From Adlercreutzia sp. ZJ141 (GTDB taxonomy: Bacteria; Actinomycetota; Coriobacteriia; Coriobacteriales; Eggerthellaceae), in assembly GCF_011038965.1 (NCBI RefSeq), contig NZ_JAAKEB010000017.1, forward strand, positions 1-44,653: 44,653 bases of DNA. The letters are read 5' to 3'. Every line of letters starts with the position of its first letter. The first letter of the stretch is position 1. A model generated the notes under the pieces. It searched no databases. It saw only the letters and a program-made list of their open reading frames with translations, and was not told the DNA's origin. The position numbers and the translations under genes are program-made. Positions 25,436 to 44,653 of the stretch are shown here, piece by piece.

Positions 25436-25437
25436 GA

Positions 25438-28589: not shown

Positions 28590-28607
28590 CCGAAACCTCT
28601 CTAACGT

Positions 28608-29633
28608 TCAGCAATCATTCGCATTATCAAAACCACCCTCCTTGGTGCTGTCGCTGCGCAATCCCTGCTTCGCAGATTGTTTCTGACCAGCAATCGACAC
28701 AGTTTCCAGATCTTTAAGAACGATATGAGTAAACTCGCTAGATCCGGTCGCGTTCAAGAATTCGGAGTCGAAGAATAATTCGTGCCTTTCAACAAAGCGT
28801 TCGTCGCGCAAATAGTCGAGAACAGGCGCATCTACACCAGATTCGACGATGTTGTCGTACATGAAGGCCTTGAGGAACGCGTCCGAGAAGCGATCGAGCA
28901 TCACATTCGTCATCGGCGGTATAACCAGAGCGGGCATGGCACCGATTGCCCTAATTTGCTCGACGATCTTTCGTAGGTTCTTCCGGTTGGCTTCGAACTC
29001 AGACGCCATTCTCGCGGCAGGAGCAGCATCTTTCAGATTCTTTAGGCCGAAGTTTCGGCACCATGCCTGTTCCATACAAATGGCTTCCTCTTCCCGCTCC
29101 TCTTCACTCATGCATTGATGAACTGGCATTGTCGTGGAAACATCCCTCACAACAGAGAACAGAGCCCTTTTCGATGACAGGACAGGCAGCATACGCTCCT
29201 GAAACGCAACCAAGGGGCTGTATTCCCTAATGTCCTCACAAGGCAGAAAGTGGTAGTACATTCGGTTGTTCTGCCCCGGGTAGTGAAGCACAGCAAACAA
29301 TAGCGGGGCAATGGCAACGATCACGATGGCACCAGTCGCGAATCTGTCCGAATACCGGCGAAGTATCGCAAGATCATACGAAAGGGTCTGCGACTTGAGC
29401 GCGAAGTTGAAGCCTTTGACCCCCGCAACCTCGTAGTCGAACGCTTCGCGTGCATGCGCGGAGCCGAGATTGGCCACGGTCAGCCCCCTCGGCACCTCTT
29501 CGATATATTTCTCCAGCTGCGAGACCTTGAGCTTCCAGTGGTTCGTTCCGAGGTATCTCGCATTCGCCGCAAAGACACATGCGACGAGAGCCATCGCGAC
29601 GATTAAAACGACTAGCAGCGCATCAACGAGCAT
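28608..29633 (-). CDS. Membrane-anchored SGNH/GDSL-like protein
   Basis: About 341 residues. An N-terminal transmembrane helix (M-L-V-D-A-L-L-V-V-L-I-V-A-M-A-L-V) anchors an extracytoplasmic domain. V-A-N-L-G-S-A-H (about residues 52-59) recalls the block I of SGNH hydrolases. L-N-A-T-G-S-S-E-F-T-H near the C-terminus recalls their final catalytic block, and a second hydrophobic helix lies near 100-120. These proteins acylate or deacylate polysaccharides, usually with an MBOAT partner; none is in the operon. The start is the ATG at 29633, preceded by GGAGGCGAG inside the SDR gene (22-bp overlap); an earlier in-frame GTG or ATG would extend back without a ribosome-binding site. Assignment moderate. 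Confidence 0.6.
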   Translation of the reverse strand: MLVDALLVVLIVAMALVACVFAANARYLGTNHWKLKVSQLEKYIEEVPRGLTVANLGSAHAREAFDYEVAGVKGFNFALKSQTLSYDLAILRRYSDRFATGAIVIVAIAPLLFAVLHYPGQNNRMYYHFLPCEDIREYSPLVAFQERMLPVLSSKRALFSVVRDVSTTMPVHQCMSEEEREEEAICMEQAWCRNFGLKNLKDAAPAARMASEFEANRKNLRKIVEQIRAIGAMPALVIPPMTNVMLDRFSDAFLKAFMYDNIVESGVDAPVLDYLRDERFVERHELFFDSEFLNATGSSEFTHIVLKDLETVSIAGQKQSAKQGLRSDSTKEGGFDNANDC

Positions 29634-30418
29634 GACTCGCCTCCGTCCAATGCAATGACCTGACCCGTCATATGGCGAGCTGCAGGCGAAACGAGCCACA
29701 CAGAAAGATCGGCGATTTCCTCGGCAACGGCCATCCTTCCGTCAGACGCTGGTGGATACCCCAGCTCGCTTTCCGAGGATCTCCCATTGAGGGGAGTGGC
29801 AACAGGTCCTGGCGCTATAGCGTTCACAGTGATGCCCTCCTTGAGAAGTTCTTTGCCAAGGCCCTGCGTCAAGCCGCAAATGCCATGCTTGGAGACCGCA
29901 TAGCACGACCACGCCCCCATAAGCCCCGTGTTCGAAGCAATGTTGATGACGGTGCCTTCACACCCTCGCTTCATAACTCGCCTACAAAACTCCTGAGCTA
30001 CGAAGAAAGTTCCTTTGAGGTTCGAGTCCACCACCTCATCCCACACCGCTTCCGAGCAATCAAGAAACGAGGGACATCTATACACTCCAGCATTGTTGAC
30101 CAAGATATCAGGAGTATCCTGAGAGAACACGTCCTCCATAACACGCGCAATGGCCGCTCGATCTCGAACGTCTAGCTGATGTGCGACAAATCCCCTCTCG
30201 CCCAACTCTGCGAGCTTCGAGGCGTTTCTTCCCGTCACATGCACGACCGCTCCCTCGTCGCTGAGTCTTTCGGCAATCGCCAGGCCAATTCCGCTCGTCG
30301 CGCCGGTTACAAGTGCAGACCGCCCTTGCAGCCTCGCGTCTGCTGAGAGAACGTTGACGTTTGCGTAGACAGGCTGCCTTGCCAACACGTCTTTAACCTT
30401 TTTCAGTATTTCAATCAT
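29612..30418 (-). CDS. Short-chain dehydrogenase/reductase
   Basis: 268 residues, Rossmann fold. The N-terminal T-G-A-T-S-G-I-G (about residues 38-45) binds NAD(P), N-N-A-G is the structural motif, and Y-A-V-S-K holds the catalytic Tyr and Lys; S-N-T-G-L supplies the Ser. A 30-residue N-terminal extension precedes the fold. It probably makes or modifies a nucleotide sugar or another small building block of the polymer; the substrate cannot be inferred. It starts inside the flippase stop (ATGA overlap) and overlaps the following gene by 22 bp, so it is embedded in the operon. Confidence 0.85.
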   Translation of the reverse strand: MIEILKKVKDVLARQPVYANVNVLSADARLQGRSALVTGATSGIGLAIAERLSDEGAVVHVTGRNASKLAELGERGFVAHQLDVRDRAAIARVMEDVFSQDTPDILVNNAGVYRCPSFLDCSEAVWDEVVDSNLKGTFFVAQEFCRRVMKRGCEGTVINIASNTGLMGAWSCYAVSKHGICGLTQGLGKELLKEGITVNAIAPGPVATPLNGRSSESELGYPPASDGRMAVAEEIADLSVWLVSPAARHMTGQVIALDGGESCSLMRC

Positions 30419-31872
30419 AGAGTCCTCCTGTCCAGTATCGCCGATAGCAGCTTCCTCGCCAGCCTGACCAAATCAAAAGCCTTAACGACGCCGATCAGTA
30501 AAACGGAACTCGCAAGGAGCTTCAGCGCCACCGAGTCGGCCAGAAATGACAGCGCCATCCAGGCGACGAGAAGCACCCACACAGAACCGACCCGCACGTT
30601 GAAGAGCATGCCCATATCGAACGCGCCTTGATAATAGAGCACAGCGAGCATGAACGTGAGCATGATGGCATAGCCCGCAAGAACAGCGCATGCCAAGCCG
30701 ACAGCGCCGAGACTCAAGAACGCAACCGTGCAAAAGATCGTCGCTATCGCCCAGATCAGATTGCCCACGAAGGCTGTCCACATCTTCTGCCTTTGGATCA
30801 CTTTTCGATTGACCCCATTGAGATATGATCCGACCACGCACGAAGCCATAAGCGCTGTCATGCAGTCGGAGAAGCTCTTTGCGTCATATGTTTCGCCGTA
30901 CAGAACAGTCAGCACACCAGAAAACGGAACAATGAGCGCAGATATTACTATTGCAACGATCCACTCAGTTAACATGCTGAGCCTCTCGATGCTTTCATCC
31001 GAATCCTTGGCGGCAATAAGAATAGGAAGCATCGCGTTTCCGAATGCTCCAAGAACGGTGGTGACCATCGTTCTCCACTGGAAGGCGGCAGAGTAGAGGC
31101 CGTACTCGGCATAACCTGCAGGCAAGTTGATAAGAAGGACGCCGCAGACCCAGTTCACCGGACCGACTAGAACGCCCGCAAGCATCGTCGGCAGAGCGAA
31201 GGAGCCCAGCAGTCGCAGCTCGCTTTTCGCACCTTTAAGGTCGAACCTTAAACTAAAGCGCCTCAGTCCCCTCCTAACAGAAACCCAGTACGCCAGGTTG
31301 GTGACCACGGCAACAACAGCAAGTGCCACGATGTAGCCGTCCACTCCCCAAAGAATAGCCGCAACGGGACAAAATATAATGTTCGCCATCCCTGAAACGA
31401 TGTCAACCGTCATCACCTGCCGAAAGCGCTCCAAGCCAACGAGTGTTCCCCTCTGGATTCCGTTGTACGTGGAAAACGCGAGCGTTACCGCAGCTACTCT
31501 TAAGTAGGGAGCCATCGACGAGGATCCGAGCTGGGATTGCGCGATCGCATCCGCCGCCGCGAAAAGAACGCCGGCAAAGGACACGGACGAAACAAGCCCT
31601 ACAGCAGCCGACATGCCGAGTATTCGATTGAGGCGATCTTTGTCGCTGTCTCTTAGCTCAGCAGCAAAGCGGGTCGTCAGAACCCCCAGTCCCAAAGCAG
31701 CCATGGTTGCAAACACCGCTGTGGTATTGACCACTATGCTTGCCTGGCCATAAAGTGTTGCGCCCAAGATGCGGGAGGCAAGCACCTGGGCTATGAAAAC
31801 AGCTCCTTTGCTCGCGCAAAGCCCGGCTATATTGTATCCGAGCGCAGAGCCTACTCGCGCAATGCCCCCCAT
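30415..31872 (-). CDS. wzx: Wzx-type polysaccharide flippase
   Basis: 485 residues, strongly hydrophobic. About 12-14 transmembrane helices are spread over the full length, with short basic loops. The first (L-G-Y-N-I-A-G-L-C-A-S-K-G-A-V-F-I) resembles the MATE/PST flippase start. It moves lipid-linked repeat units across the membrane, working with the Wzy polymerase in the same operon. The gene abuts the Fe-S reductase gene (4-bp gap) and overlaps the SDR gene by 4 bp. The gene name reflects role and neighbours, not sequence identity to a characterised Wzx. Confidence 0.85.
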   Translation of the reverse strand: MGGIARVGSALGYNIAGLCASKGAVFIAQVLASRILGATLYGQASIVVNTTAVFATMAALGLGVLTTRFAAELRDSDKDRLNRILGMSAAVGLVSSVSFAGVLFAAADAIAQSQLGSSSMAPYLRVAAVTLAFSTYNGIQRGTLVGLERFRQVMTVDIVSGMANIIFCPVAAILWGVDGYIVALAVVAVVTNLAYWVSVRRGLRRFSLRFDLKGAKSELRLLGSFALPTMLAGVLVGPVNWVCGVLLINLPAGYAEYGLYSAAFQWRTMVTTVLGAFGNAMLPILIAAKDSDESIERLSMLTEWIVAIVISALIVPFSGVLTVLYGETYDAKSFSDCMTALMASCVVGSYLNGVNRKVIQRQKMWTAFVGNLIWAIATIFCTVAFLSLGAVGLACAVLAGYAIMLTFMLAVLYYQGAFDMGMLFNVRVGSVWVLLVAWMALSFLADSVALKLLASSVLLIGVVKAFDLVRLARKLLSAILDRRTL

Positions 31873-31876
31873 TAAG

Positions 31877-33061
31877 CTAAACGCCCCCTCTGCTTAAGAT
31901 CTTGCGAATCAGTCTCTTCGCCCTCAAAAGGAATGGATCAGAGGCGTTTCTTCGAATGGCGTAGTCGAAACCATGAGCCACGAGATCGGCGTAGAATCGC
32001 TCGGAGCGTGAGTCTAGCTTCACGCAGCGAGTCAAAGCATTCATGTTGGCGCGTGTCAGCGTTTGCTCAAAGGGCACCTCATTCCAGACGAGACGAGAGG
32101 CGACACCCTCGAACAGTCCAACTCCTCGCGCCGTGTTAGCGAACACAACGGAGACTCCATGTGAGGTATCAATGTCAGGAAGGATCCTCTCGACGCCCCA
32201 GAAATCACCCAGGGTCACGTCGCTGCCATGAGGCGTGCCCTTGAAGTGACAGTGTTCGCAGCATTCGCGTACGTAGAGAGGATGGACGATGTATCCCCGC
32301 ATGAACCCGTCGGTGTCTCTATCCTCGCGATAAACGCTTCCGTTGTCGAAGTCGACCCTCGTCGAGAATTGATTCCAGCTAATCTCCTTGTTCTTGAACC
32401 AAACCTTCGCCACACGGCTACCAGCGCGTCTCTCCAATGATTCGAGGTACTTGCGATAAACAAGGGGCGAGTTGCACCCTAGACAAAGGAAATCAACAGT
32501 AAAGAGGTTCGCTGGATCGCCAACCAATGTCTTCAACGCGGCTATCTCACACGGAGCTGCAGCGTACAAAACCTTGCGACCGGCATCAAGAAGGCGCCTT
32601 GCTTCGAGATAGGTGCCCTTTTTGTTGCTTTGGGCATACTTCGACTGCCGAAGCCGCGGAAGATCACCTATATCCTCGACAAGCATATGGGCTATCTGGT
32701 TGTCCTTGTCGTACGCCGCACCGAATACCGCTCCTCCTTCGAGAAGCACTACGGTTGCAAGCTCGGTGAACAAACCCCCCGAAGTGCTTAGGTAACGAGT
32801 ATCTTCATTTCTTGAATATGCAGCGTATGCATGCATAACCGGCGTCAGGACCGAGTCTGGCGATGATGACATGACGGGGCATGACTGCACGCACTTTCCA
32901 CACGAGACGCACGCGTTCTCATCAACACAAGGACAGAGGAAGCCTTTCTTATCCGGTTGCATGGAAACCGCATTCGCCGGACAGATGCTGTGGCAGGCCG
33001 CGCATCCTGTGCAATCCGTCGCATTTACCGTCTTTCCCACATGCGGTCTTCTCAATCCCAC
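31877..33061 (-). CDS. F420 hydrogenase beta subunit-like Fe-S protein, polysaccharide-associated
   Basis: 394 residues. Two 4Fe-4S motifs open the protein ([12 protein letters not shown] and [12 protein letters not shown]), followed by the coenzyme F420 hydrogenase/dehydrogenase beta-subunit N and C domains. Genes of this type regularly neighbour polysaccharide pyruvyl transferases, as here, one gene away. The biochemical role in capsule synthesis is not established; electron transfer for sugar modification is a guess. The GTG at 33061 follows GGAGGGAGTCTG and overlaps the previous gene by 10 bp. Confidence 0.85.
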
Positions 33062-33684
33062 CAGACTCCCTCCTTGATTACCTTTGCGGGGACGCCTGCG
33101 ACCAGCGAGTTGGGCGGTATGTCTTTGGTGACAAGCGCCCCCGCCGCGACTATCGATCCTTCACCGACGGTAACGCCCTTGAGAATAGTCGATCGGGTTC
33201 CAATCCATACGTGATCGCCGATTACAACCGGTCTTGCAGCGACCGGTTGGCCGCAAATCGAATGATGGTCGGAGTCCATAATCGTCACGTCATGTGAGAT
33301 GGCGACCTCTTTCCCTATGTTTATCGATTTGGCGCAACGAATCTTGCAGTTTGAGTTGATGTAACCGCTTCCGAGGGTGAGCTCGCCTCCCGGAAACACA
33401 ACGACATCGGCATCATAGAAGAATGAGAAGCTGCCAAGCGCTCTCACCCTCGCTCCTTTGTCCAATCTGATAGTGGACTTCCTCTCACCTCGACTGACGC
33501 AATTGGTATTGATGAATAGCTTCGCTCCTTCGTTAACTTGGATCTCTGATCCTCGCGCCATGCGAATTCGAGACCCCGCAAAAGGTATGACAACACCTTT
33601 TGCGGCCGGGTTCATGCATAAGCACAGAAAGCTTAAGTACGCGATGCGCAGCGCCATATGAACTTTTCTATTGAAATCTTTCAT
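33052..33684 (-). CDS. Hexapeptide-repeat acyltransferase
   Basis: 210 residues. Left-handed beta-helix repeats (I-R-L-D-K-G-A, V-F-P-G-G-E-L, I-N-I-G-K-E-V, V-V-I-G-D-H-V, V-T-V-G-E-G-S) end with the WcaF/CysE-like closure [21 protein letters not shown] holds the probable catalytic His. An N-terminal helix ([13 protein letters not shown]) is unusual and may associate with the membrane. It likely acetylates a sugar of the repeat unit. It shares a 10-bp overlap with the next gene. Confidence 0.85.
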
Positions 33685-33703
33685 TATATCTAATCCCAGC
33701 TTT

Positions 33704-34966
33704 CTACTGCCGAGCAGAATTTGTCTTTTGACTCAGAAGAACATGTTCCAGCTGCATAAAACCGCTAGTCGTTTTCAGCGTCGATCTTATTTGCGATATC
33801 CGAGAAACAAGACTCTCGTGAACCTTGATCGATTCCCCCTGAAGCTCAACGAGTTTGCCGGGCAGCTTCTCATCAGCTCCAATCAGCGGGAGAACCCAGC
33901 GATCCGATCCGTAAACGAACTCGCACATCCCCTGCGCCTTCTGGCTGTAGGAGAGCAAGATGGTCGGCACGCCCTCACACATGGCGTTCACGGCGCAGTG
34001 CATGCGCGCTGCCACCACGAGGCGACAGCATCGGAGCATGCGTTTTGCATCGAGAAATCCCTTTGGCTCCACTATCTCGGCGCGAGCACAATGCGCGTTA
34101 TCCATGGCGTTGTATATTCGTCGCAAAAAAAGCAAGTCATTGTCTTCCTTGCAAGGCGAAACAACATGAGGAATTAAAAGAGCGGGTAGTTTTGTCTGAT
34201 CCATGAGAGAGGCAACAAGCGAGGCTAGTCGCGCCACATCCAAATCTGAGACGCCTCCGTATAATTCGTGCAACGAGAGCGGGCTGAGATTTATCCCCAA
34301 GTATTTGGCGCTATCCCAATAGTGGAGACCCTCGCTCCCGTCGGTTACGAAGAATGCCGGATCGGGCATCAGGCAAACATTCTCACTCACTCCGATGGAT
34401 TCGAGATACTTCACACTGCGTCTTTCGCGACAACAGACAAGGTCAATGTTTCGCAGATGATCGGCGTAGTAGTCCACGGCGGGCTTGTAGTCGCCGAAAG
34501 GACCGACGGATGCCCCGATGACGACTTCCGTGATACCGCGCTGCCGTGCGACCTCGCCTGCCCGGACGAGCGAGTTGAAGTACGGATACCTACCATGTTC
34601 ACGCAGGTGGACCGGGATGGTGTAGATGTCACCGCCGATAGAGACGAGAGCGTCTGCGCCTTCGAGAATGGAATCGTAGTCTACTCTCGTCGAGTCAAAG
34701 GGGATGCACACAGCCCGTGCGATCTTGTTAACGACTTTTAAGGGTATGCCGCGCTTGCCGGTTCGAAGTTGTGCGACCTCGACATCTGTGTCTGTTATAC
34801 GGCGCGCATCGTCCTCTGGGAGAGGAGTGATATATCGGATTTGTGCACCTGGCACAGCGTGCCGCAGAATGATCGCCGTTCCGCGCACGATAGCCTCGCA
34901 GCCGTAGTTATAGAGACCTCCAACTCCATACAGAGAAAGAATGGGGGCGCTATTGGTGTCCAACAT
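33704..34966 (-). CDS. Polysaccharide pyruvyl transferase family protein
   Basis: 420 residues. It begins with [13 protein letters not shown], the family's G-x-x-N-x-G-D/C-E motif, has S-I-G-G-D-I-Y-T in the middle, and ends in [20 protein letters not shown], the conserved R-x-H-x block. The family transfers pyruvate ketals from PEP to sugars, adding negative charge to the polymer; some members have other roles. AAGGGGGATTAGAT precedes the ATG. It is next to GT4-like and hexapeptide genes and two genes from its Fe-S partner. Confidence 0.85.
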
Positions 34967-34968
34967 AT

Positions 34969-36114
34969 CTAATCCCCCTTCAATATTTTGCGAACAATCT
35001 CGACGATGTTCACGGAATCGAAATATGCTCTACTGCGCTTGGAATAGCCACCATAGTCAGCCTCGATTTGACGCACCGCCTCGACGATGGAGCCCGGATC
35101 ATTGATGTTACAAGTTACGCCCAAGCCCACCTGCGTAAAAACCGAAGTAAGACCAGGAACATCAGAACCAATCATAGGAAGACCGAAACGCGAGTATTCC
35201 CATATCTTGTTTGGAGCACAGTAAAGCGCATTGAGCGGCGACTGTCTGCCAGCGAAAGCAGGCTGATAAGGAAGAAGGCCAATGTGGGCATGTTTGGTAA
35301 AGACGAGGTGTTGGGGAGCCGGCACAAACTCAACGAGAACAATACTGTTACTACCTACGATCTTCTCGCGAAGTGCCCTTCCGCTCTCGTCATCCCTCAG
35401 TCCCATCAGGTACAAGACGTAGTCCTTGCCCAACATCTCAACTGCGTCGATACATCCTGAGAAATCCCTGTCTGGGGAAATAACACCCTGATAGAGTAAA
35501 ACACGTCTGCGCTCCTTACAAAGTCGAGAGAGCGAGTCGGCGTACTCCCTTGTTAATGACGTTTCGTCGCCTTGGAGGAAAGGCTTGTTAGGTAGGACCG
35601 CAGGTCTTCTAGAAAGGCGCCACCAAGCCTGCTGTATAAAAGATCTGTTGTACTCGGGAACAACAACACGGTAAGCTTGGCGGGCAAGTTCCAAAACGTA
35701 GTCAGCTTTAAGAGGAAAGGCGTCATTATGACCGAGTCGCGGTGGTGCAGAGGTTGAAAGCTCCAACAGCTGCATAACATGCCTGAACTCAAATAGATCA
35801 CACCCGCAGTCTCTCGCTGAACATTCGGTCACTGTCCACACAACGTCGAACTTCTGTCTACCGCGCAGGATACGCTGCAACTTCCTTTGGGTATCAGAAT
35901 CGCTCTTCATGCGGCTGATCTTGGAGTCTCCTCTAGGCCCAAGCTCGAAAGAAGAGAATTCACTGCAGCTAGATAGTTCGGCTGGAATCCCAGCAACATT
36001 GCGACAAGCCAAGACAACACAATGACCCAAGTTAAGCAGAGCTCCGCAGACAGTAATTGCTGGAGGTAAGGTTTCGATGTTTCCGTCAGTTGCAACGACA
36101 AAGATAGTACTCAT
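34969..36114 (-). CDS. Glycosyltransferase, GT4-like
   Basis: 381 residues, GT-B fold. Residues I-T-V-C-G-A-L-L-N-L-G-H-C-V-V form the N-terminal Rossmann strand-helix. R-V-L-L-Y-Q-G-V-I-S is the family's linker to the C-domain, and P-N-K-I-W-E-Y-S-R-F-G-L-P-M-I-G-S-D is the donor-binding E-containing block (one glutamate of the EX7E type). It adds one sugar of the repeat unit from a nucleotide donor at the inner membrane face. Donor and acceptor are unknown. Base composition is more AT-rich than in the flanks, as common for transferred O-unit genes. Confidence 0.8.
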   Translation of the reverse strand: MSTIFVVATDGNIETLPPAITVCGALLNLGHCVVLACRNVAGIPAELSSCSEFSSFELGPRGDSKISRMKSDSDTQRKLQRILRGRQKFDVVWTVTECSARDCGCDLFEFRHVMQLLELSTSAPPRLGHNDAFPLKADYVLELARQAYRVVVPEYNRSFIQQAWWRLSRRPAVLPNKPFLQGDETSLTREYADSLSRLCKERRRVLLYQGVISPDRDFSGCIDAVEMLGKDYVLYLMGLRDDESGRALREKIVGSNSIVLVEFVPAPQHLVFTKHAHIGLLPYQPAFAGRQSPLNALYCAPNKIWEYSRFGLPMIGSDVPGLTSVFTQVGLGVTCNINDPGSIVEAVRQIEADYGGYSKRSRAYFDSVNIVEIVRKILKGD

Positions 36115-36118
36115 CTTG

Positions 36119-37447
36119 TTAATCCTTCAACAGTTTTATGGCTGGCCTAATGTCTCCTCTAAGTCTCCGTTCATCTATGGAGGCATCCAGTTCCTGCAGC
36201 GAGACTCCGAGATGACCACGTGCTACAAGAACAAGGCAAAAAGCTAGGTACACAGCATAAGAAGAGAAGAAAGAAGGCTCGGACGTACTTGTAACAAGAA
36301 GATAAATTGGTATAGCCATAGCTGCCCAGAAAAAGCACTTTGAACGTCTGGCATCAGAAGCCACTCCCTTTACAAAAACTATGACCATAACAAGATAAGT
36401 GGCGAAGCCGATCCAACCAAATTGTGCAATAACCGTAGGCCAAAACATATCGGCTAAATAAGCGGGATCGGAAGGAGTAAGTCCATAAATTAGATTCAAT
36501 CCGAACAAGTAATATAGCGATGTGTAGGCAGTCTTGCTAACCTCACAACCGTATGTCCCAAAGCCGGAACCAAGGGGAAATAACCAGTTGGCAATACTCA
36601 TAGATCTGTCAAGAAGGGCTGCTCTAGCAGTTTCATTGCCGGAGAAGTAGTACGTAGTAATTTGATCGGCAGCAAGCACGACAGCGCAGATCAGAGCAAG
36701 AAAAACGAAGCTAACAGTTATTCTGTTGGTCCTGCTGAATACAAACAAGGTAACAAGTATGATTCCAGCAAAGGCAATTGCCTTGTAACGAGTCGTAAAA
36801 AAAAGAAGGATGAAACAGCAGACAATATAGAATCGATTACTGCGTCTATCCATCATCAATAAGGCAAGCAGGCCGACAATTGAGGCGGAGAAGTTGCTGG
36901 GGTGAGCGAAAAAGAATACGAAATTTCTGATTCCAAATCGAGTTTCGGTTGTCATGCCAATGCCGACTACCTGGTCCGCCACCAGACAAATCATCATGAC
37001 GATGATATAGGCCTTACCAATTCCGACACAAAGAGATAAAAGTGTATGCGAGACGCCATGGTCATTCAGAATCTTCAGAGAAAGAAAGGCGATGAAAAAC
37101 TTCAAGCAGGTAAAGAAATCTATGGCAACCGCGCTCCAAACACTCTGAAAAGAACTGACAACATTCCCAAGAAACCCAATGCCCATAAGAAAAAAGCAGC
37201 CAGCAATAAGCAACTTGTCTTCAAGTGACAACCAAAGAGAGCTATGTCCACCAACTATCTTCCTTAGCGCAAGAAAAGCAAAGATGAGAGCAGAAAGCTC
37301 ATCTATGTAGGCTGCAGGTCCCCAGACTTTGCTCTGAAGGCAGTTTTCGACAAGAAGTAGAGCGAACAGTAAAGCACCTGCTAGATCAACGATCCTGAGA
37401 TCCCCCACGACACCGACCCCACGTCGCGTGGTAATCTTTCTAGTCAT
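36119..37447 (-). CDS. wzy: Wzy-type polymerase (O-antigen ligase/polymerase-like membrane protein)
   Basis: 442 residues with about 11-12 transmembrane helices. A larger extracytoplasmic loop follows the sequence L-F-P-L-G-S-G-F-G-T-Y-G, which matches the 'G-x-G-x-G-x-Y' signature of Wzy polymerases. It should polymerise lipid-linked repeat units outside the membrane. It is AT-rich, like most wzy genes. It overlaps the GT2 gene by 8 bp and is followed by a GT4 gene after 4 bp. The assignment rests on topology, the Gly-rich loop and the presence of wzx. Confidence 0.8.
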   Translation of the reverse strand: MTRKITTRRGVGVVGDLRIVDLAGALLFALLLVENCLQSKVWGPAAYIDELSALIFAFLALRKIVGGHSSLWLSLEDKLLIAGCFFLMGIGFLGNVVSSFQSVWSAVAIDFFTCLKFFIAFLSLKILNDHGVSHTLLSLCVGIGKAYIIVMMICLVADQVVGIGMTTETRFGIRNFVFFFAHPSNFSASIVGLLALLMMDRRSNRFYIVCCFILLFFTTRYKAIAFAGIILVTLFVFSRTNRITVSFVFLALICAVVLAADQITTYYFSGNETARAALLDRSMSIANWLFPLGSGFGTYGCEVSKTAYTSLYYLFGLNLIYGLTPSDPAYLADMFWPTVIAQFGWIGFATYLVMVIVFVKGVASDARRSKCFFWAAMAIPIYLLVTSTSEPSFFSSYAVYLAFCLVLVARGHLGVSLQELDASIDERRLRGDIRPAIKLLKD

Positions 37448-38543
37448 CCGTCCTCCTTCTTAGCATAGAGGAACGAAGAACTTTTGTTTTTTGGAATAAG
37501 CGAAATGCGATCCGTCCAAGAAAGGGCGAGTATCTAGTAAGGGTTATTGAGATCCAGTCCACAATTGAGAGATCAAAAGAGTTCGAAAAGCAACTGCTAC
37601 TACGTAGCCTTCTGATAACGTCGAGATATATTTCCTTGCTCGTATCGTCACGCTCTTCAACAGAACGATAAATTCGTGCCATGCGAGCACACTCAACCTG
37701 TTCTCTAGCTAAACAGGCATCCCTCACTTTTGAGGACGCATGCTCAGAAAAACGTTTCTCGTTACGTAGTAAAGCATCGTGGTAGTCGCGGTACTGCCTG
37801 ACTGAAATATGGCGTTCTCTCGTGATGGAGCCACTTCGCATGAGTTGCCCATACAGGGGAGCCTGTATTTTAGCTACCTTGGAAGCTGAAGCAAAAATAT
37901 CGGGCATCAGGAAAAGGTCTTCGTAGACTTTTCCAGTCGGAAAGGGATGAGCCGACCATAGTATCGTCGGTGCGAGCTTGCCACAGGCGGAGACACTAAA
38001 TACCCTCCCGAGAAGCATCTCAACGAGTGCTTCCTCGGTATAATAGGTCAAATAAGTAGATCTGGAATGATTTGAGAAATCATAATAATCTGCACTACTT
38101 ATTTCTATTGAGTCGCATGCGGACAGATCGCAGCCGCCTTCAAAGATCGGTTTAGCGAGTTCATCGATATAGTATCGGGAGACAAAATCATCTCCATCGA
38201 CGAATGCGACGTAGTCACCGTGCACAACAGAAAGCCCAGCGTTTCGGGCATCAGAGAGCCCTCCGTTAACCTTATGCACAACGCGCACGCGCGGATCTTG
38301 TAGGGCAAATCGATCACACATATCGCCCGATGAATCTGTTGAACCATCATCTACAAGTACGATATCAAGATTCGCATATGACTGGGAAATAATGCTACGT
38401 ACGCAATCGTTGAGATAGCCTTCAACATTATAGATAGCCACTACAATGGAAATGAGAGGGAGATCATCCGCATCCCTGCGAACAACAGACGCAACTTCAG
38501 AGGTTGTTTGTGAAGAGGCTGCAGCGCCCGAAACCAAGTTCAT
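37440..38543 (-). CDS. GT2-family glycosyltransferase
   Basis: 367 residues. The GT-A domain covers residues 30-250: I-S-I-V-V-A-I-Y-N-V-E-G-Y-L, then D-I-V-L-V-D-D-G-S-T-D-S-S-G (nucleotide-binding), then G-L-S-D-A-R-N-A-G and F-V-D-G-D-D-F (metal-binding D-x-D). The tail is helical. It adds one sugar to the lipid-linked intermediate in the cytoplasm. It overlaps the WecG-type gene upstream by 4 bp and the Wzy gene downstream by 8 bp. Confidence 0.9.
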   Translation of the reverse strand: MNLVSGAAASSQTTSEVASVVRRDADDLPLISIVVAIYNVEGYLNDCVRSIISQSYANLDIVLVDDGSTDSSGDMCDRFALQDPRVRVVHKVNGGLSDARNAGLSVVHGDYVAFVDGDDFVSRYYIDELAKPIFEGGCDLSACDSIEISSADYYDFSNHSRSTYLTYYTEEALVEMLLGRVFSVSACGKLAPTILWSAHPFPTGKVYEDLFLMPDIFASASKVAKIQAPLYGQLMRSGSITRERHISVRQYRDYHDALLRNEKRFSEHASSKVRDACLAREQVECARMARIYRSVEERDDTSKEIYLDVIRRLRSSSCFSNSFDLSIVDWISITLTRYSPFLGRIAFRLFQKTKVLRSSMLRRRTDD

Positions 38544-39310
38544 AGACCCCTCCTAGCCCGCTTCTCCTCCGCGCGTAAGATACGGAAGAAGCGGGCATTA
38601 CCCACCACATACCTTTTCACGAGCCTTCGTGGTTCCTGAAACATACGGAAAAGCCATTCGAGTCGCGCCTTCTGCATCCATACTGGTGCGCGCGGGATAT
38701 TGCCCGACACTACATCAAAAGCTCCCCCTACACCCACGTAAGCCCCAGAAACCCCAAGCTCGCGGAAGCCTTCTATTAATTGTTCTTTCTTAGGACTCGT
38801 AATACCTACGAACACAATCGCCGGACGCAAGGCAGACACCTCGTCATACACTGAATCTAACTCGTCTTCTTTGAAGTAGCCATCACGGAGGCCGCAAACA
38901 TTAAGTTTCGGGTACTTCTCCCGCAATACGTCAACCGCCTTAGCCACAATCTCAGACTTGGCCCCCAGGAGATAAATGGGATACCCCGCCTTCTCAGCGA
39001 GAGCGCACAGCTCCCACATTAGATCAACTCCAGCTACACGCTCCGGTACGTCAACTCCAAGTCTTTCGGCAGCCATTACCATAGATGCACCGTCTGCGTT
39101 CACTACCTCACAGCGACGTACGCAGGCATCCATCCAAGGGTCGTCACGCATCTGTAATAGTTTGTCTGCGTTTACTCCCATAAGGTGCGCAAAGCATCCC
39201 TCACGCACTATACGATCACAAGCTTCAACGGTCTGAGCCATGGACCAAGGATCTATCGGCACACCAAGTACCTTGACTCGCTGCGGGAGATCGGAGTAAA
39301 GACCTGCCAT
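38540..39310 (-). CDS. WecG/TagA/CpsF family glycosyltransferase (GT26)
   Basis: 256 residues. Conserved blocks are V-N-A-D-K-L-L-Q-M, V-N-A-D-G-A-S-M-V, R-V-A-G-V-D-L-M, Y-L-L-G-A-K and V-G-I-T-S-P-K-K-E, then G-V-G-G-A-F-D-V-V-S-G and R-A-P-V-W-M-Q-K-A-R-L-E-W-L-F-R. The family transfers ManNAc or ManNAcA to GlcNAc-lipid; with WecB at the operon's end this fits a ManNAc-containing repeat unit. It abuts the priming transferase stop with no gap. Confidence 0.9.
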   Translation of the reverse strand: MAGLYSDLPQRVKVLGVPIDPWSMAQTVEACDRIVREGCFAHLMGVNADKLLQMRDDPWMDACVRRCEVVNADGASMVMAAERLGVDVPERVAGVDLMWELCALAEKAGYPIYLLGAKSEIVAKAVDVLREKYPKLNVCGLRDGYFKEDELDSVYDEVSALRPAIVFVGITSPKKEQLIEGFRELGVSGAYVGVGGAFDVVSGNIPRAPVWMQKARLEWLFRMFQEPRRLVKRYVVGNARFFRILRAEEKRARRGL

Positions 39311-40186
39311 CTATGCCGCCCCCTCTCCGGTGAGCATTGCGCGAATGGTACTGAAAATAAGATCCAAATCATGTCGCGTAGAACGTTTATCTATGTATCT
39401 AAGATCGAGTGTGACCATGTCATCAAAGCCAACATCGGAACGGCCCTTAACCTGCCAAGCACCTCCGCAACCGGGCTTCACGGTTAAGCGCTGTTTGGCT
39501 CGTACGTTGTATTGGACAACTTCATTGGGCAGCCCCGGGCGAGGACCGATGAGACTCATATCGCCCAAAAAGACGTTGACCAGTTGAGGGAGCTCGTCGA
39601 GGGAGTGTTTACGAATGAAGTGCCCAATGTTAGGGATGATACGGGGGTCATCCTTTATCTTAAACAGCGGGCCATCGGCCTCGTTCTTGTCTTGAAGATC
39701 GTCGAGCATCTGATCAGCGTTGGGCACCATGCTCCTGAACTTCCACATACGGAAGAGCTTGTAAGTGCCGTCTTTCCGCAGGCGCCCCACACGCAGTTGA
39801 CTATAAAAAGGACTCGCACCGGGCGACTTAATACAGATGACGGCGCACATCACGAGACCCGGCACCAACAGCACCAAAATGGCCGCGCCCGACGCCGCGA
39901 TATCGAAGGCACGTTTGACGGCGCGATAACCGTAACGCGACAGGTCGGGGCGGATACCGGAGTTCGTTGTCGCGAGTACAGAGGCAGCCTCAGCGTCAGT
40001 CATGTTGGCAGAGCATTCAACAGATACAGAAAGGGCGTCGGCCCGAAACAAACGCTCGGCCGATTCCTCGGCTGCTGCAAAACCCTCTGCAGGTTCCATG
40101 CAGAGAGCATCTGCTACTCCGTTGACCATGCTGCTTGCCAACCCTGCTTCCTTTCCTTCATCCTGAGCGCCCTCTTGAGCGCGCAA
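39311..40186 (-). CDS. Priming sugar-phosphate transferase (bacterial sugar transferase)
   Basis: 291 residues. A low-complexity N-terminal tail of about 85 residues precedes one transmembrane helix (A-A-S-G-A-A-I-L-V-L-L-V-P-G-L-V) and the catalytic bac_transf domain: Y-S-Q-L-R-V-G, K-F-R-S-M-V-P, then D-E-L-P-Q-L-V-N-V-F and S-L-I-G-P-R-P-G-L-P. It transfers a sugar phosphate to undecaprenyl phosphate and starts each repeat unit. It lacks the extra transmembrane helices of WbaP, so it is a short PglC/WcaJ-C-type enzyme. The unusual N-terminal tail may be unstructured or the start may be later. Confidence 0.9.
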   Translation of the reverse strand: MRAQEGAQDEGKEAGLASSMVNGVADALCMEPAEGFAAAEESAERLFRADALSVSVECSANMTDAEAASVLATTNSGIRPDLSRYGYRAVKRAFDIAASGAAILVLLVPGLVMCAVICIKSPGASPFYSQLRVGRLRKDGTYKLFRMWKFRSMVPNADQMLDDLQDKNEADGPLFKIKDDPRIIPNIGHFIRKHSLDELPQLVNVFLGDMSLIGPRPGLPNEVVQYNVRAKQRLTVKPGCGGAWQVKGRSDVGFDDMVTLDLRYIDKRSTRHDLDLIFSTIRAMLTGEGAA

Positions 40187-40209
40187 TAATCCCGGTTCGT
40201 TTCCCTACG

Positions 40210-40737
40210 TCATTGCCGCTTGGTAGTGCTCCGCTGGCAGGTGACGCGCAGACCCACTTGAGCCTCCACCTCTTGTCCGGCCACGCTCATGCGCACGTAG
40301 GCGCGCTTGCCTCGGTTCCTTACGCGGCGGATCAGGTTTTCGCGGCCGCAAAGCGGCCCGCTCGTCACCGTGATCGCACCGCCCGTGCCGACGTGTCCCT
40401 CCGAGAAACCGACGGTGCGGTGTCCTGGGCGCGTGAGTTCACCTAGAAGCGCGACCTCACCCGGCTTCATCTCCGCAGCGCTGGGGCCGTCTTGCAGCAG
40501 CTCGTCGATGCCGCGCGCGTGGCGCAGGGCCGCGCGTACCTCGCGCCTTCCAGGTGCCACGGCCACGAGCAATCCCGGAGCTAAGGGTTCCTGCGGCGGA
40601 TCCGAGCCTTCGCGCGGCAAGCCCACTTCGGCTCGCGGCACGAACAGCTCCTCAAGGCCGTCGGAAAGCGCACGCTTCTGCAAAAGGGTGAGCGCTTGCT
40701 CCTCACAGCCTGGTTTCACGTTGATCGCAAACCACAT
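40210..40737 (-). CDS. NusG-like specialised transcription factor, copy 2
   Basis: 175 residues. The start M-W-F-A-I-N-V-K-P-G-C-E-E-Q-A matches the NusG N-terminal (NGN) domain. R-P-G-H-R-T-V-G-F leads into a KOW-like end (I-T-V-T-S-G-P-L-C-G-R-E-N-L-I-R-R-V-R-N-R-G-K-R-A-Y). In LoaP, RfaH and UpxY relatives this architecture serves processive antitermination of long operons. It is the second gene of the operon, 9 bp after copy 1 and 23 bp before the priming transferase. It is much diverged from copy 1. The middle region is Arg/Pro/Glu-rich and atypical. Confidence 0.7.
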   Translation of the reverse strand: MWFAINVKPGCEEQALTLLQKRALSDGLEELFVPRAEVGLPREGSDPPQEPLAPGLLVAVAPGRREVRAALRHARGIDELLQDGPSAAEMKPGEVALLGELTRPGHRTVGFSEGHVGTGGAITVTSGPLCGRENLIRRVRNRGKRAYVRMSVAGQEVEAQVGLRVTCQRSTTKRQ

Positions 40738-40746
40738 GAGCGCCCC

Positions 40747-41322
40747 CTAGCTCTTGAACGGCACGTCCATGGGCACACACTCGGCAAACCCTCCGTCCAC
40801 ATCTACGAAGCAGAAGCGCTTGTGGCGGTTCACCTTGACCACACGATCCTCCTGGCCGACAAGCGGGCCCGATTGCACATGCAGCACGCCGTCCTCAATG
40901 ACGGCGGTGCTCGTGCGGATGACACGCTCTGTGTCGAGAACGCCCTCGTACCACTCCTGCGCGGCTGCGGAGAGCGGCGCGAAGTGCTTACCGGCGTCGG
41001 CCTTCGCTATGCGCGCAGGGAAGGAGAGCTTGGCAAGCTCCTTGTCTAAGGTGAGCACGTCCTTCGTCACGACGAAGAAGTACTCGTGATACATCGGAAC
41101 CGGGTAGAGGCTCCATGTACCGTGGTATTTGCGCCAGCGCTCTTTGCGCATCACGAATGCGTCCTCCAGCAGGTCAGGAGGCATGAGCTTGCGCACCTTC
41201 TCGCAGGTGGCCTGCTCGCACCCAGGGGCGTGGACCACATACCAGCGTCTGGTGCCGCGAGGCGTGCGTCTGCCAACCGGCATTCCTCCGAGAGTCAGCG
41301 TTTCCGCAGGTTGTTTGGTCAT
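40747..41322 (-). CDS. NusG-like specialised transcription factor, copy 1 (operon head)
   Basis: 191 residues. R-R-W-Y-V-V-H-A-P-G-C-E-Q-A-T is the NGN domain start, with Y-P-V-P-M-Y-H-E-Y-F-F-V typical of the aromatic strand. The C-terminus has a KOW motif (G-P-L-V-G-Q-E-D-R-V-V-K-V-N-R-H-K-R). It is the first gene after the switch region, as expected of an antitermination factor that loads at its own leader. AAGGGGGG precedes the ATG at 41322; a GTG at 41328 is also in frame. The leader to 41422 contains no strong terminator I can identify. Confidence 0.75.
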   Translation of the reverse strand: MTKQPAETLTLGGMPVGRRTPRGTRRWYVVHAPGCEQATCEKVRKLMPPDLLEDAFVMRKERWRKYHGTWSLYPVPMYHEYFFVVTKDVLTLDKELAKLSFPARIAKADAGKHFAPLSAAAQEWYEGVLDTERVIRTSTAVIEDGVLHVQSGPLVGQEDRVVKVNRHKRFCFVDVDGGFAECVPMDVPFKS

Positions 41323-41412
41323 ATCCACCCCCCTTGCCTACTTTTGGTCAAGACAAGACGCGACCGCGGCCTGTTAAAGGCGGCGATCTGCGCCTCTTGC
41401 CGGTGAGGGTGT

Positions 41413-41568
41413 TGGAAAAGTACACTTAAAAATTAGGGGTACCAGTAAACGAAAAACGGTAATGAAAACCGTGTGAACAGGGTAAACATTTCAAGAGACG
41501 TGTATAATCCGCCAAAAGACGTGTATAATTCACGACATTGTCGGTGAGTGAAAAGGTGTACTTTTTCA
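41413..41568. promoter_or_regulatory. Candidate invertible promoter segment
   Basis: TGGAAAAGTACAC at 41413-41425 and its inverted counterpart (TGAAAAAGTACAC on the minus strand, 41556-41568) match at 12 of 13 positions. Both centre on AC/GT (41422-41423; 41558-41559). The right site extends to a 20-bp dyad (41549-41568). Between them AGACGTGTATAAT occurs twice, 21 bp apart, with TATAAT at 41503-41508 and 41524-41529. In this orientation the boxes face right, away from the polysaccharide operon. After inversion they would lie near 41473 and 41452, facing the operon. A serine recombinase gene lies 80 bp to the right. A hairpin CAGACGTT/AACGTGGTCTG follows the right site. No -35 box is clear. 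See findings. Confidence 0.55.
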
Positions 41569-41648
41569 GACGTTGAAAACGTGGTCTGAACAGGTCTTAT
41601 TCAATTGTTTCTAAGGATTTGTTTTTCAGCGGCGGTTGTCATGTGCCG

Positions 41649-42266
41649 CTAGCTTTCGGCCTTATCCTTGCGCTCTTCGCGCAGCCACTTGTCAAACGTG
41701 CTCAGGCTCACCTTCAGTCTCCCGGCCGCCTCAGCACGTGTGATGTGCCCCTCCAAGTATGCCTGCCTTGTCGCCTTATAGCTCGTAGGCTTCTTCTTGC
41801 TCGGACGCCCGAACCGCACGCCGCGCGCCTTCGCCGAAGCAATTCCTTCAGCCTGGCGCTGGCGAATGTTTTCGCGCTCCATCTGCGCGACGTAGCTCAA
41901 AAGCTGTAGCACGATATCAGCGATGAACACGCCCGTGACGTTTTCCTTGGACTCCCGGGTGTCAAGCAGTGGCATGTCGAGCACCACGATCGCGCATCCC
42001 ATGTGCTTTGTGATGTTTCTCCACTCATCTATGATCTCGTCGTAGTTGCGCCCCAACCGGTCGATGCTTTTGACGACCATCACGTCACCCGGCTCCATCA
42101 CATCCATGAGACGCTTATACTCTGGCCGCTCGAAGTCCTTGCCGCTTGCCTTGTCTGCGAACACGTTTGACTTATCAATCGGGAAGGCCAGAAGAGCATC
42201 GAGCTGCCTGTCTAGGTTTTGGTCTTTGGAGGATACGCGGGCGTACCCGTAGGTTGCGTTTGACAT
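41649..42266 (-). CDS. Serine recombinase (resolvase/invertase family)
   Basis: 205 residues. The catalytic domain begins Y-G-Y-A-R-V-S-S-K-D-Q-N-L with Ser12 as the nucleophile. The other conserved residues are R in L-D-R-Q-L, D-R-L-G-R-N-Y-D-E and the E-helix M-E-R-E-N-I-R-Q-R-Q-A-E-G-I. The DNA-binding tail has A-E-A-A-G-R-L-K-V-S-L-S-T-F-D-K-W. Size is that of small invertases and resolvases such as Hin, Gin or Mpi. GAAGGAGG precedes the ATG at 42266; the frame is open 24 bp upstream without improvement. It sits between the sortase gene and the switch region, with no transposase partner, so a local DNA inversion role is plausible. Confidence 0.9.
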   Translation of the reverse strand: MSNATYGYARVSSKDQNLDRQLDALLAFPIDKSNVFADKASGKDFERPEYKRLMDVMEPGDVMVVKSIDRLGRNYDEIIDEWRNITKHMGCAIVVLDMPLLDTRESKENVTGVFIADIVLQLLSYVAQMERENIRQRQAEGIASAKARGVRFGRPSKKKPTSYKATRQAYLEGHITRAEAAGRLKVSLSTFDKWLREERKDKAES

Positions 42267-42375
42267 GGATGCCTCCTTCATATGTCGCATCGCGATCGCA
42301 GAAAGCGATACTCAGCACCACATGGGGCGCACGGGGTGCTTGGCTCGCCTCGTGCGGTGCTGTCGTATCTCTTAA

Positions 42376-43137
42376 TTAAGCAGGTTGAGATGTGGATGCG
42401 TACACGACGGTGCGATAATTTCCCGTCTGATCGCTGCAGGTCGCAAAGGCCCAGACCACATCACTTGTGCTCACACCCCCGTCGAGCACCAGATCGCTTC
42501 GGGTTATGGCACCTTCGACGTATGCGACGCGATCCTCATCTGTGGCGAAGCTCGTGCGCAGCATCTCTTGGCGTGCGTCGACCACGTCAACTGCCCTGAC
42601 CTTGAGCTCATAGCATCCGCCATCTGTGCGTGTGTGCACGTAGATGACCTCGTGCTGCCGCGCGTATGTCTCGTCGATAAAGTTTGCGAAGTCGGCAAAG
42701 ACCGTGCCGTCGCTTAAGTTGTGACCGTAGACCATGGCGAATGGGGAGTCCACCGTGCACTCGCAGTCGATATACGGGGTGCCGTATGCACCCTGCCCTA
42801 ATGCGTCCTCGTAGAGGTATCTGTTCGGGCAGTCCGGTGTCGCCTGCGCTATGGGCTCATCGATGGTTGTCCCAGGCACCTCCACCCATGCGACGATTGA
42901 CTCTGGAAGCGCATCCCAGTCGATTGGGCAGGGCTGCTCGCCCCCAGGTTCGGTTCCTGCTTCTACGTCGGGCTGCCTTGCGGGCGCGGGACTGGCGTCA
43001 GGTGGGAGCGTTTGCCAGAGTGCGAAGGCGAGAAGACACGCCACCGCGACACTCAAGAAAAAGCGCGCGACGATGCCGTGGAGGCGGGAAAAACACCCGC
43101 CTCCACACTTAGCGCTGCGTGTGCGCCTACTTCTCAT
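42376..43137 (-). CDS. Sortase (class B-like)
   Basis: About 253 residues. An N-terminal transmembrane helix (F-F-L-S-V-A-V-A-C-L-L-A-F-A) anchors the enzyme outside. The catalytic residues are visible: His in M-V-Y-G-H-N-L, Cys in A-T-C-S-D-Q, and Arg in Y-R-T-V-V-Y-A. The TC-S...RTVVYA context is that of class B sortases. It cleaves an LPXTG-like signal and joins the substrate to the cell wall or a pilus. The upstream neighbour is a VaFE protein with a Y-P-K-T-G signal, so they form a substrate-enzyme pair. The ATG at 43137 overlaps the VaFE gene's end, giving translational coupling. Confidence 0.85.
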   Translation of the reverse strand: MRSRRTRSAKCGGGCFSRLHGIVARFFLSVAVACLLAFALWQTLPPDASPAPARQPDVEAGTEPGGEQPCPIDWDALPESIVAWVEVPGTTIDEPIAQATPDCPNRYLYEDALGQGAYGTPYIDCECTVDSPFAMVYGHNLSDGTVFADFANFIDETYARQHEVIYVHTRTDGGCYELKVRAVDVVDARQEMLRTSFATDEDRVAYVEGAITRSDLVLDGGVSTSDVVWAFATCSDQTGNYRTVVYASTSQPA

Positions 43138-44653
43138 CGGAGGGTTCCGCTTCGCTGCGCTCACGTCGCCTTAGGAACGCGCTTGTGCCCCCTGCTAAGC
43201 TAAACGCAACAAGTGCGCATGCGCTTGCCCCGACGGCGCACGCTGTGACGACGGCGCCGGTCTTGGGATATCCCTTGCCGGAAGCCTCAGGCTCAGGCGT
43301 TTGCCCAGGTACGGGTTCTGGCTCAGGCGTGGGCTCATCGGACACGATGTTTACCGTCTGGGCCTCATCATTAATATCTGCATGGGTTGCAACCTCAATG
43401 CCATCCTTTACGAGCGTTTCGAATACAACGGCGGTCTTTTCCTCAAGTCCCGTGGCGTCGAACTCGAAAGTGACCTCGACTTCGCCGTCGGGCTGCTCGG
43501 GCGTGAACACGGAAGACGCTGTGATTTCTTTGCCCTGGGCGTCCTTTAGCGGCTCGCCTGTGGCCTTGTCCATAAGGGTGCCGGTTACGACGTACTCCTT
43601 GCCGACGGCGAGGTTTTCGTAAGACACTGTGTCTACGATTTTGGCCTTGTCATTGGCGATCACGTTCTTGTCGCCGTCAGCGCCGTCTGCTGCTGTCGTG
43701 TGGATGGACGGAAAGCTCACTGTCTGACCTTCGTCGTTGATGTCTTCGTGTGTGGCGATGATGCTCTCATCCTTGTCGGTGAGCTTCTCGAAGAAGACAA
43801 CCGACGTGCCCGCAAGCTTGGTCGTGTCGATGTCGACCGTGACGTCCACGGTTCCGTCAGGAGTATTCGGTGTGAACACGGTAGTACCCACCTTCGGAAG
43901 CCCGTCATCGCCTGTAAGAGCAGTGTTTGTAGACTTGTCCATGAGGGTGGTAAAGATGCGGTACTCATGTCCGGGGGTAAGGCCTGTATAGGCAACAGTG
44001 TCGATGAGCTTGCCGTCTTTCGTGGCGGCTCCTTCGCTTGTATTCGTGATGCCGTCACGTGCCTGGGTAGCGATGTCAACGATGGCGACCGTCTGGTCAA
44101 CGTCGTCAATGTCGGCGTGCACCATATACTCGGCGTCTTCGAAGAGCATGGTCTCAAACGCCACGAGCGACTTACCCGCAAGGCTTGTGCCTGCGAACGT
44201 GAAGGTCACCTCGACCGTTCCGCAGGATTCTTCTGCGGTGAAGGTGGTAGAAGCGGTGATCTCGTTGCCCTCATCGTCAAGTGCGGGCGCACCGGTGGCC
44301 TTGTCCATGAGTGTGCCTGATGCCGTGTAGACGTTACCCGGAATAAGACCGGTGTATTCGATTGTGTCTACAATGGCAAGCTCATCCCGCGCTTGGCCCT
44401 CGTGGGTACCCGACTCTGCATCTGTTGCCGTGGTCTTCATGGTCTTTGGTGTGTTCTCAAGCTCAAACACATGGGTCTGAGCCATAGACTCTGTCTCATC
44501 CCACTCGATCATGCCTTGGTCGTTTACCGTAAAGTCGATGACACGAGCGCTTCCTTCCTCGTCAAGGTCGGTGATGGCATAACCTTCGGGTGCCTCAACC
44601 TCTTGGATGTGATAGCTTCCGTGCTTGGCATAGGCAAGCGATATCATGCCCTC
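43127..44653 (-). CDS. VaFE-repeat cell-wall anchored surface protein (partial, 5' end outside window)
   Basis: 508 residues are visible; the gene continues past the right edge. From the edge: a SpaA/Cna-B-like end (Y-H-I-Q-E-V-E-A-P-E-G-Y), then three VaFE repeats of about 105 residues. Each contains G-x-x-Y-x-x-x-T-L-M-D-K followed by V-A-F-E, V-V-F-F-E or V-V-F-E, and closes with a D-I-N-D/D-I-D-D...Q-T-V. These are Thr-Gln ester-bond (intramolecular cross-link) adhesin domains. A Pro/Glu linker, G-Y-P-K-T-G sorting signal, hydrophobic helix and Arg-rich tail close the protein. It is a pilin or adhesin for mucus or host contact, cross-linked by the sortase downstream. Confidence 0.9.
   Translation of the reverse strand, partial: EGMISLAYAKHGSYHIQEVEAPEGYAITDLDEEGSARVIDFTVNDQGMIEWDETESMAQTHVFELENTPKTMKTTATDAESGTHEGQARDELAIVDTIEYTGLIPGNVYTASGTLMDKATGAPALDDEGNEITASTTFTAEESCGTVEVTFTFAGTSLAGKSLVAFETMLFEDAEYMVHADIDDVDQTVAIVDIATQARDGITNTSEGAATKDGKLIDTVAYTGLTPGHEYRIFTTLMDKSTNTALTGDDGLPKVGTTVFTPNTPDGTVDVTVDIDTTKLAGTSVVFFEKLTDKDESIIATHEDINDEGQTVSFPSIHTTAADGADGDKNVIANDKAKIVDTVSYENLAVGKEYVVTGTLMDKATGEPLKDAQGKEITASSVFTPEQPDGEVEVTFEFDATGLEEKTAVVFETLVKDGIEVATHADINDEAQTVNIVSDEPTPEPEPVPGQTPEPEASGKGYPKTGAVVTACAVGASACALVAFSLAGGTSAFLRRRERSEAEPSDEK

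Follow-up and report, generated by a model that had tools for sequence, protein, structure and literature searches.

A putative invertible promoter with an adjacent serine recombinase in front of a NusG/LoaP-headed polysaccharide operon in Adlercreutzia sp. ZJ141

The 44,653-nt stretch of the Adlercreutzia sp. ZJ141 genome analyzed here (the window, contig C7) very probably carries a phase-variation switch in which a serine recombinase would invert a 136-bp promoter segment, controlling a NusG/LoaP-headed polysaccharide operon that is OFF as assembled. An invertible promoter in front of this operon, with a dedicated recombinase, had been proposed in a first-pass annotation and is still the best reading, given the inverted homologous segments found at other loci and a promoter box that points toward the operon in three loci and away from it in twelve. 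The observation is real and well explained, with a strikingly consistent family of loci behind it, and its anatomy, the conserved sites, the two orientations at homologous loci and the direction of the −10 boxes are established.

In the mechanism that we propose, the product of the recombinase gene (41649–42290) would bind two 26-bp sites with AC/GT cores and, judging from homologs, would stochastically invert the 136-bp segment between them. The segment would carry an outward promoter with its −10 box 21 nt from one site. As assembled, this promoter would be directed toward the tail of the recombinase gene, leaving the operon OFF; after inversion in this strain, it would drive transcription across the operon-side site and into the leader, and only then would the operon be transcribed. 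Two LoaP-like proteins, acting as antiterminators, would assist RNA polymerase in traversing the long operon, and a surface polysaccharide would presumably vary between the two states.

The two arms of the inverted repeat (41413–41425 and 41556–41568) match at 12 of 13 positions and are separated by 130 nt. This repeat had been annotated as 13 bp long and centred on AC/GT; it was reproduced and is above chance in shuffles, but the site appears to be larger than noted, about 26 bp with dyad symmetry. With at most one mismatch, GAAAAAGTACAC has exactly two matches in the 44.6-kb window, namely the inverted pair (mean of 0.10 in shuffles; two matches were reached in 0 of 100 shuffles). The arms are themselves imperfect palindromes, each built around a 2-bp AC/GT core with a half-site close to AAAAAGT, as a serine-recombinase site should be. 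The candidate crossover site on the recombinase side (41546–41571, minus strand, core 41558–41559) is composed of the half-sites GTCTGAAAAAGT and GAGTGAAAAGGT flanking AC, and the 26-bp candidate on the operon side (41410–41435, plus strand, core 41422–41423) of the half-sites TGTTGGAAAAGT and TAATTTTTAAGT. The cores are 136 bp apart and enclose the putative invertible segment (41424–41557), whose homologs are inverted in other species. When the 330 nt that follow the recombinase gene were shuffled 20,000 times by dinucleotides, 3 shuffles gave a paired-site score at least equal to that of the window, under a scoring model built after the sites had been seen. When the whole genome was searched with the 13-mer (at most one mismatch), seven matches were found in this non-exhaustive search, and only those on C7 and on contig C14 form pairs.

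The gene at 41649–42290 on the minus strand encodes a small serine recombinase of 213 amino acids, presumed to be a dedicated invertase (PF00239 Resolvase, 6e-31), and its end lies 80 bp from the right arm, the distance originally reported. Residues R18, S20, R78, and R81, which we take to be catalytic, are invariant in the recombinase alignment, and the motifs ARVS..Q and SIDRLGR are invariant or nearly so across 14 aligned sequences. The C-terminal helix-turn-helix is weakly matched by HTH_28, below the cut-off of that model. With a resolvase domain, a conserved serine and arginines, and a C-terminal helix-turn-helix, the predicted protein has the features by which a small serine recombinase or DNA invertase is defined, and we infer that it is the invertase of the two sites. 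A third recombinase paralogue, on contig C1 of the same genome, has no site pair under the scoring model. Directly upstream of the recombinase gene, on the same strand (42376–44647), lie genes for a sortase, class B-like but below the NCBIfam cut-off, and for a VaFE/T-Q ester-bond surface protein.

On the other side of the segment, a run of 14 co-directional minus-strand genes extends from 41328 to 27483. The NusG-headed 14-gene polysaccharide operon described in the first-pass annotation was confirmed, its first open reading frame starting at GTG 41328 or ATG 41322, 84–90 bp from the left arm. The first two genes (40747–41328 and 40210–40737, minus strand) encode NusG-like proteins for which LoaP (NF033641) is the best NCBIfam model, with 70.2 and 75.2 bits, respectively, against a cut-off of 125 that neither reaches; the first has no Pfam match and the second has 22.4 bits to PF02357 (NusG) against 22.2. 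The UpxY model (NF033644) yielded 18.9 and 20.0 bits against a cut-off of 100. These putative antiterminators are nearer LoaP than UpxY, below the curated cut-offs of both. The 12 further genes (27483–40186, minus strand) are mostly devoted to polysaccharide synthesis and encode a sugar transferase, WecG/TagA, glycosyltransferases, a weakly Wzy-like protein, a pyruvyl transferase, a hexapeptide transferase, an FrhB-like protein, a flippase, an SDR, a protein without a Pfam match, and a UDP-GlcNAc 2-epimerase. An IS21-type transposase pair (istA/istB, 24692–26994) is located past the end of the operon.

The operon leader (41329–41409, minus strand) contains a predicted RNA hairpin at about 41356–41394 (MFE −36.5 kcal/mol, z −2.60; z −3.91 with another 90-nt cut), and the corresponding z-scores are −2.57 for C14 and −2.79 for the related genome G028 (Adlercreutzia sp. 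ZJ176). A conserved LoaP loading hairpin across leaders was considered and rejected: folding z-scores spread from −4.6 to +2.1 over 20 loci with a NusG-like gene, and only the hairpin of these three copies is therefore put forward. An Rfam scan of 40900–42400 gave one sub-threshold match (18.4 bits against 48).

Searches for relatives of the recombinase gave hits in 31 of the 138 family genomes (E ≤ 1e-50) and in 99 of the 395 genomes covered in the order (E ≤ 1e-55). Part of these loci were pooled with the best 80 from each of the scans of named genomes and of viral contigs, giving, after identical copies had been dropped, 227 loci (75 from whole genomes, 74 from named genomes, 77 from viral contigs, and the window), and site pairs were sought in the 217 of them that had 150 nt or more of downstream sequence. 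A pair was detected downstream of the recombinase stop codon in 57 of these 217 loci, against 4 of 224 upstream regions and 1 of 4,340 shuffles; the cut-off of 34 is the window's own score, and 10 of the 57 loci, the window included, just reach it. The other 160 relatives have no site pair under the scoring model. The 228 half-sites of the 57 loci, related loci included, gave the consensus AAAAnGT, and half of them carry a G at position −12, a position outside the search score, which lends some independent support to a 26-bp site. The cores are AG in 25 loci, AC in 24, and others in 8. Core-to-core distances cluster near 105–107, 115–118, 125–128, and 135–139 bp. Among 45 loci with less than 80% identity between recombinase genes, the phase concentration R was 0.68 at 10.2 bp and 0.64 at 10.5 bp, and a concentration this strong was not reached in any of 20,000 sets in which the distances were jittered by at most half a turn. 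Such helical phasing would answer the expected need of direct looping between close sites.

Of the 57 loci with sites, 21 have a NusG-like open reading frame past the far arm; of the 160 without, 4 have one nearby (Fisher p of about 1.5e-10, uncorrected for shared ancestry). Paired sites with a related recombinase were also seen upstream of other genes, encoding a chemotaxis receptor (L132), a leucine-rich repeat protein (L113), an NRPS-like enzyme (L203), Wzz (L164), a dockerin/fn3 protein (L245), a phage lysozyme/peptidase (L246), and a repeat protein (L293), and 6 of 20 scanned downstream genes other than NusG had no Pfam match at 1e-5. Locus L051 (G118:C518) has the same switch anatomy, with a TATAAT box toward the recombinase gene; no NusG open reading frame was found there and a double-GTPase protein follows. 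The 24 Collinsella-type loci L264–L287 (g87), 20 of them distinct, have recombinases of about 63–65% identity, and a downstream site pair was found in none of the 20. A GCAGGTA-like element between the recombinase stop codon and the near arm was considered as an accessory site; the pattern occurs in 14 of the 57 loci, with no control, and is not claimed.

The two tandem TATAAT boxes, 21 bp apart on the plus strand, that had been noted earlier were found again at 41503–41508 and 41524–41529. The second of these lies 21 nt from the 16-bp centre of the recombinase-side site and faces away from the operon; the first is also present in C14 and is missing from G028. Sites in inverted orientation flank a putative promoter, the arrangement by which such a switch is recognized, with −10 boxes inside and no consensus −35 sequence for either box. 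The sigma-70 scan reported no promoter inside the segment, and promoter function rests, with no −35 recognized, on the conserved −10 sequence and its fixed place. No TATAAT-like box (at least five of six positions) points toward the operon inside the segment of the window. A terminator-like hairpin at 41456–41472 is not claimed because such sites are near the shuffle level (3 in 40000–42500 against 2.6 in shuffles) and because its sequence is not kept in G028.

The place of the −10 box is shared by most of the loci with a NusG-like gene. Fifteen of the 21 have a −10-like box (TATAAT in 14, TATAGT in L290) that is 18–22 nt away from a site centre and points out through that site, against a mean of 0.7 and a maximum of 4 of 21 in 2,000 rounds of shuffled interiors. 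This box points away from the operon in 12 loci, among them the window, C14, and G028, in agreement with the OFF orientation first assigned to the window, and toward the operon (ON) in three (L253, L254, and L292), where it lies 21–22 nt from the operon-side site. Weaker boxes matching at five of six positions also occur in the opposite direction in 5 of the 15 (L053, L091, L137, L259, and L292). The six loci without a −10 box at 18–22 nt are L058, L061, L062, L063, L064, and L066.

The first-pass annotation had called for related genomes to be aligned, and the segment was indeed found in both orientations at homologous loci of other species. Pairwise comparison of interiors gave 28 pairs with a score of at least 24, of which 13 matched better inverted and 15 direct. 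Flanks and interior were measured separately in 15 pairs; nine were better inverted and six direct, including window/C14 and window/G028. These comparisons involve different species with one assembly each, and no single strain is represented in both states. The interior of L290/L292 matches at 125/134 positions inverted and 67/158 direct, with 57/66 in the near flank and 381/400 in the 400 nt past the far arm, and that of L092 (Collinsella tanakaei)/L253 at 104/111 inverted and 47/132 direct, with flanks of 55/59 (near) and 360/400 (far). The values for L091/L254 were 71/112 inverted against 50/131 direct (near flank 59/71, far 302/410). In three further pairs the near flank is poorly conserved: L061/L063 (59/91 against 48/105; near 34/74, far 350/406), L062/L063 (66/90 against 43/103; near 46/77, far 312/407), and L254/L260 (82/119 against 51/143; near 39/76, far 325/412). 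L080/L082, without NusG, gave 76/100 against 47/121, with 349/403 past the far arm; L063/L066 gave 84/91 against 47/100, with masked bases further out; and L112/L144 is weak (71/109 against 57/115, flanks poorly matched). Homology and box direction agree in L092/L253, L290/L292, L254/L260, and L091/L254, and inversion is clear in the Gordonibacter-type loci.

Within the one assembly of this genome, no inverted orientation was seen; both copies are OFF, as is the nearest relative G028, and inversion in this organism is thus proposed by analogy. The predicted inverted junction was found neither in viral contigs nor in 303 fetched loci, and the window's own right-arm sequence is also missing from the viral contigs. 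The plasmid collection, searched in near mode with 41330–41648, gave no match. In locus L080 (G029:C67; the L105 contig, Adlercreutzia sp. ZJ473), a second copy of the segment lies nearby in the opposite orientation, forming a 114-bp perfect inverted repeat; this may be either a real duplication or the assembly trace of a mixed population.

The second copy in this genome, on C14, shares the module at 92% identity over 4.1 kb (window 40139–44217), with identical arms and a recombinase 98% identical to that of the window. It precedes a different polysaccharide operon, which includes WecG/TagA, a UDP-glucose dehydrogenase, a UDP-GlcNAc 2-epimerase (76% identical to that of the window over 1.06 kb), glycosyltransferases, and EpsG. 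The sortase gene and most of the surface-protein gene within the stretch are also duplicated on C14, a contig that ends inside the latter gene. In G028, the module matches at 89% over 4.4 kb, and in the roughly 10.8 kb past it blastn at 1e-8 matches nothing else in the window, which suggests that a 4.4-kb switch module has been horizontally exchanged. L092 (G324, f4) and L253 (G238, f2) have near-identical switch modules (566/624 in the recombinase gene) in different families of the order, again suggesting horizontal exchange.

Three other explanations of the locus were weighed. The sites and promoter may be left from a once-working switch whose segment no longer inverts, with the operon silent or driven by read-through. 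The nearest copies (C7, C14, and G028) are all in one orientation and the operon-side site is among the weakest (10/14 against the consensus), as such a relic would have it; against this, the arms have stayed identical between C7/C14 and G028 while the interior has diverged, and the recombinase is intact, with 98–100% protein identity. We consider a locked segment improbable. It is very unlikely that the operon is driven from a fixed leader promoter, or by transcription running on from the recombinase gene, while the segment mainly controls the recombinase through an opposing promoter. The assembled boxes do face the 3′ end of the recombinase gene, which is co-directional with the operon, but the sigma-70 scan found no promoter-like site in 41329–41412, and in three loci with a NusG-like gene the −10 box faces the operon at the distance from the operon-side site given above.

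That the enzyme is a resolvase or transposon recombinase, with paired sites serving the resolution or integration of a mobile element rather than a promoter switch, would fit its nearest solved structures, which are Sin/Tn552 bin3 and the Tn3 and γδ resolvases, with DNA-invertases further down, and would also fit a 4.4-kb module that looks horizontally exchanged. Resolvase sites, however, would be direct repeats and give deletion, whereas the sites here are inverted, very close, and helically phased, and homologous interiors occur in both orientations; this explanation appears extremely improbable. The promoter switch is the reading that we retain.

More tentatively, and with rather less than even confidence, the locus may belong to a large family of exchangeable switch cassettes of Coriobacteriia, in which the OFF promoter would act as a latch by lowering recombinase expression and the two copies would co-switch or exchange. 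If so, a cassette would consist of an adjacent serine recombinase, a phased promoter inverton (mostly 105–150 bp core to core), LoaP-like genes, and an interchangeable capsule operon, and, in Clostridia, related recombinase–inverton units would precede genes of other kinds. In the latch, the OFF promoter would fire against the tail of the recombinase gene, resulting in less recombinase, and this would explain the 12:3 excess of OFF among assemblies, whose loci share some ancestry and are not independent. With their identical arms, the two copies of a single genome could then switch jointly or swap parts.

Promoter inversion as a route to capsule phase variation is most familiar from Bacteroidales. 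The layout described here would extend an analogous logic to gut actinobacteria, with an adjacent, presumed invertase and LoaP-like antiterminators. Capsule switching, with a possible role in phage and host interaction, can now be tested by PCR in Eggerthellaceae, Gordonibacter, and Collinsella, and the very short, helically phased segments could serve as naturally occurring data on the synapsis of closely spaced sites by serine invertases. According to the part of PMC8748976 available to us, loci with invertible promoters are far less common in other gut phyla than in Bacteroidales, and Actinobacteria have some, so that single loci may already be listed elsewhere. A survey reports inversions in 3 of 19 Actinobacteria, and six Coriobacteriia genus names looked for are missing from its main text (PMC5903667). 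Searches of open-licence literature turned up no account of this switch.

Several known systems share parts of this anatomy. For LoaP of Bacillus velezensis, a UNCG hairpin in the operon leader is described (PMC12691694); LoaP is the best-scoring model for both NusG-like proteins of the window, but below its curated cut-off, and no UNCG tetraloop (TNCG) was seen by reading in the 97-nt leader, where another hairpin is predicted. In Eggerthella lenta, the available part of a preprint (PMC13174815) describes reversible inversions of more than 1 Mb that involve capsule clusters near loaP and are flanked by the 16-bp repeat GATAAGCGCGGTTATG, with no recombinase gene found at the breakpoints. The family Eggerthellaceae, capsule operons, a LoaP-type antiterminator, and reversible inversion (in the window, by analogy) are common to both; unlike that system, the window has a 136-bp promoter segment, other sites, and an adjacent recombinase, and GATAAGCGCGGTTATG has one match in it with three mismatches, which is at chance level. 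The Salmonella Hin/hix flagellar switch likewise combines a serine invertase, 26-bp sites, and promoter inversion (the invertase and the inversion being putative in the window). As far as the excerpts of PMC3798978 and PMC5903667 go, the Hin segment is about 1 kb long, with a Fis-bound enhancer, and includes the hin gene, whereas the segment of the window is 136 bp long and its recombinase gene lies outside.

A parallel had been drawn with the capsule loci of Bacteroides; the capsule switches of Bacteroides fragilis involve the Mpi invertase, invertible promoters, and UpxY antiterminators (PMC5903667 and PMC10939037, in part). Mpi serves at least thirteen regions across the genome, in the consulted portion of PMC5903667, whereas the recombinase of the window is adjacent and co-directional, with two matching site pairs in the genome in one 13-mer search. 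The phylum is different and the identity of the proteins did not hold, the Mpi model (NF009949) giving the recombinase 54.4 bits against a cut-off of 272 and UpxY also falling far below its own. The functional layout, in contrast, did stand: as in B. fragilis, a serine recombinase and a short, probably invertible promoter segment are combined with a NusG paralogue that comes first in a polysaccharide operon.
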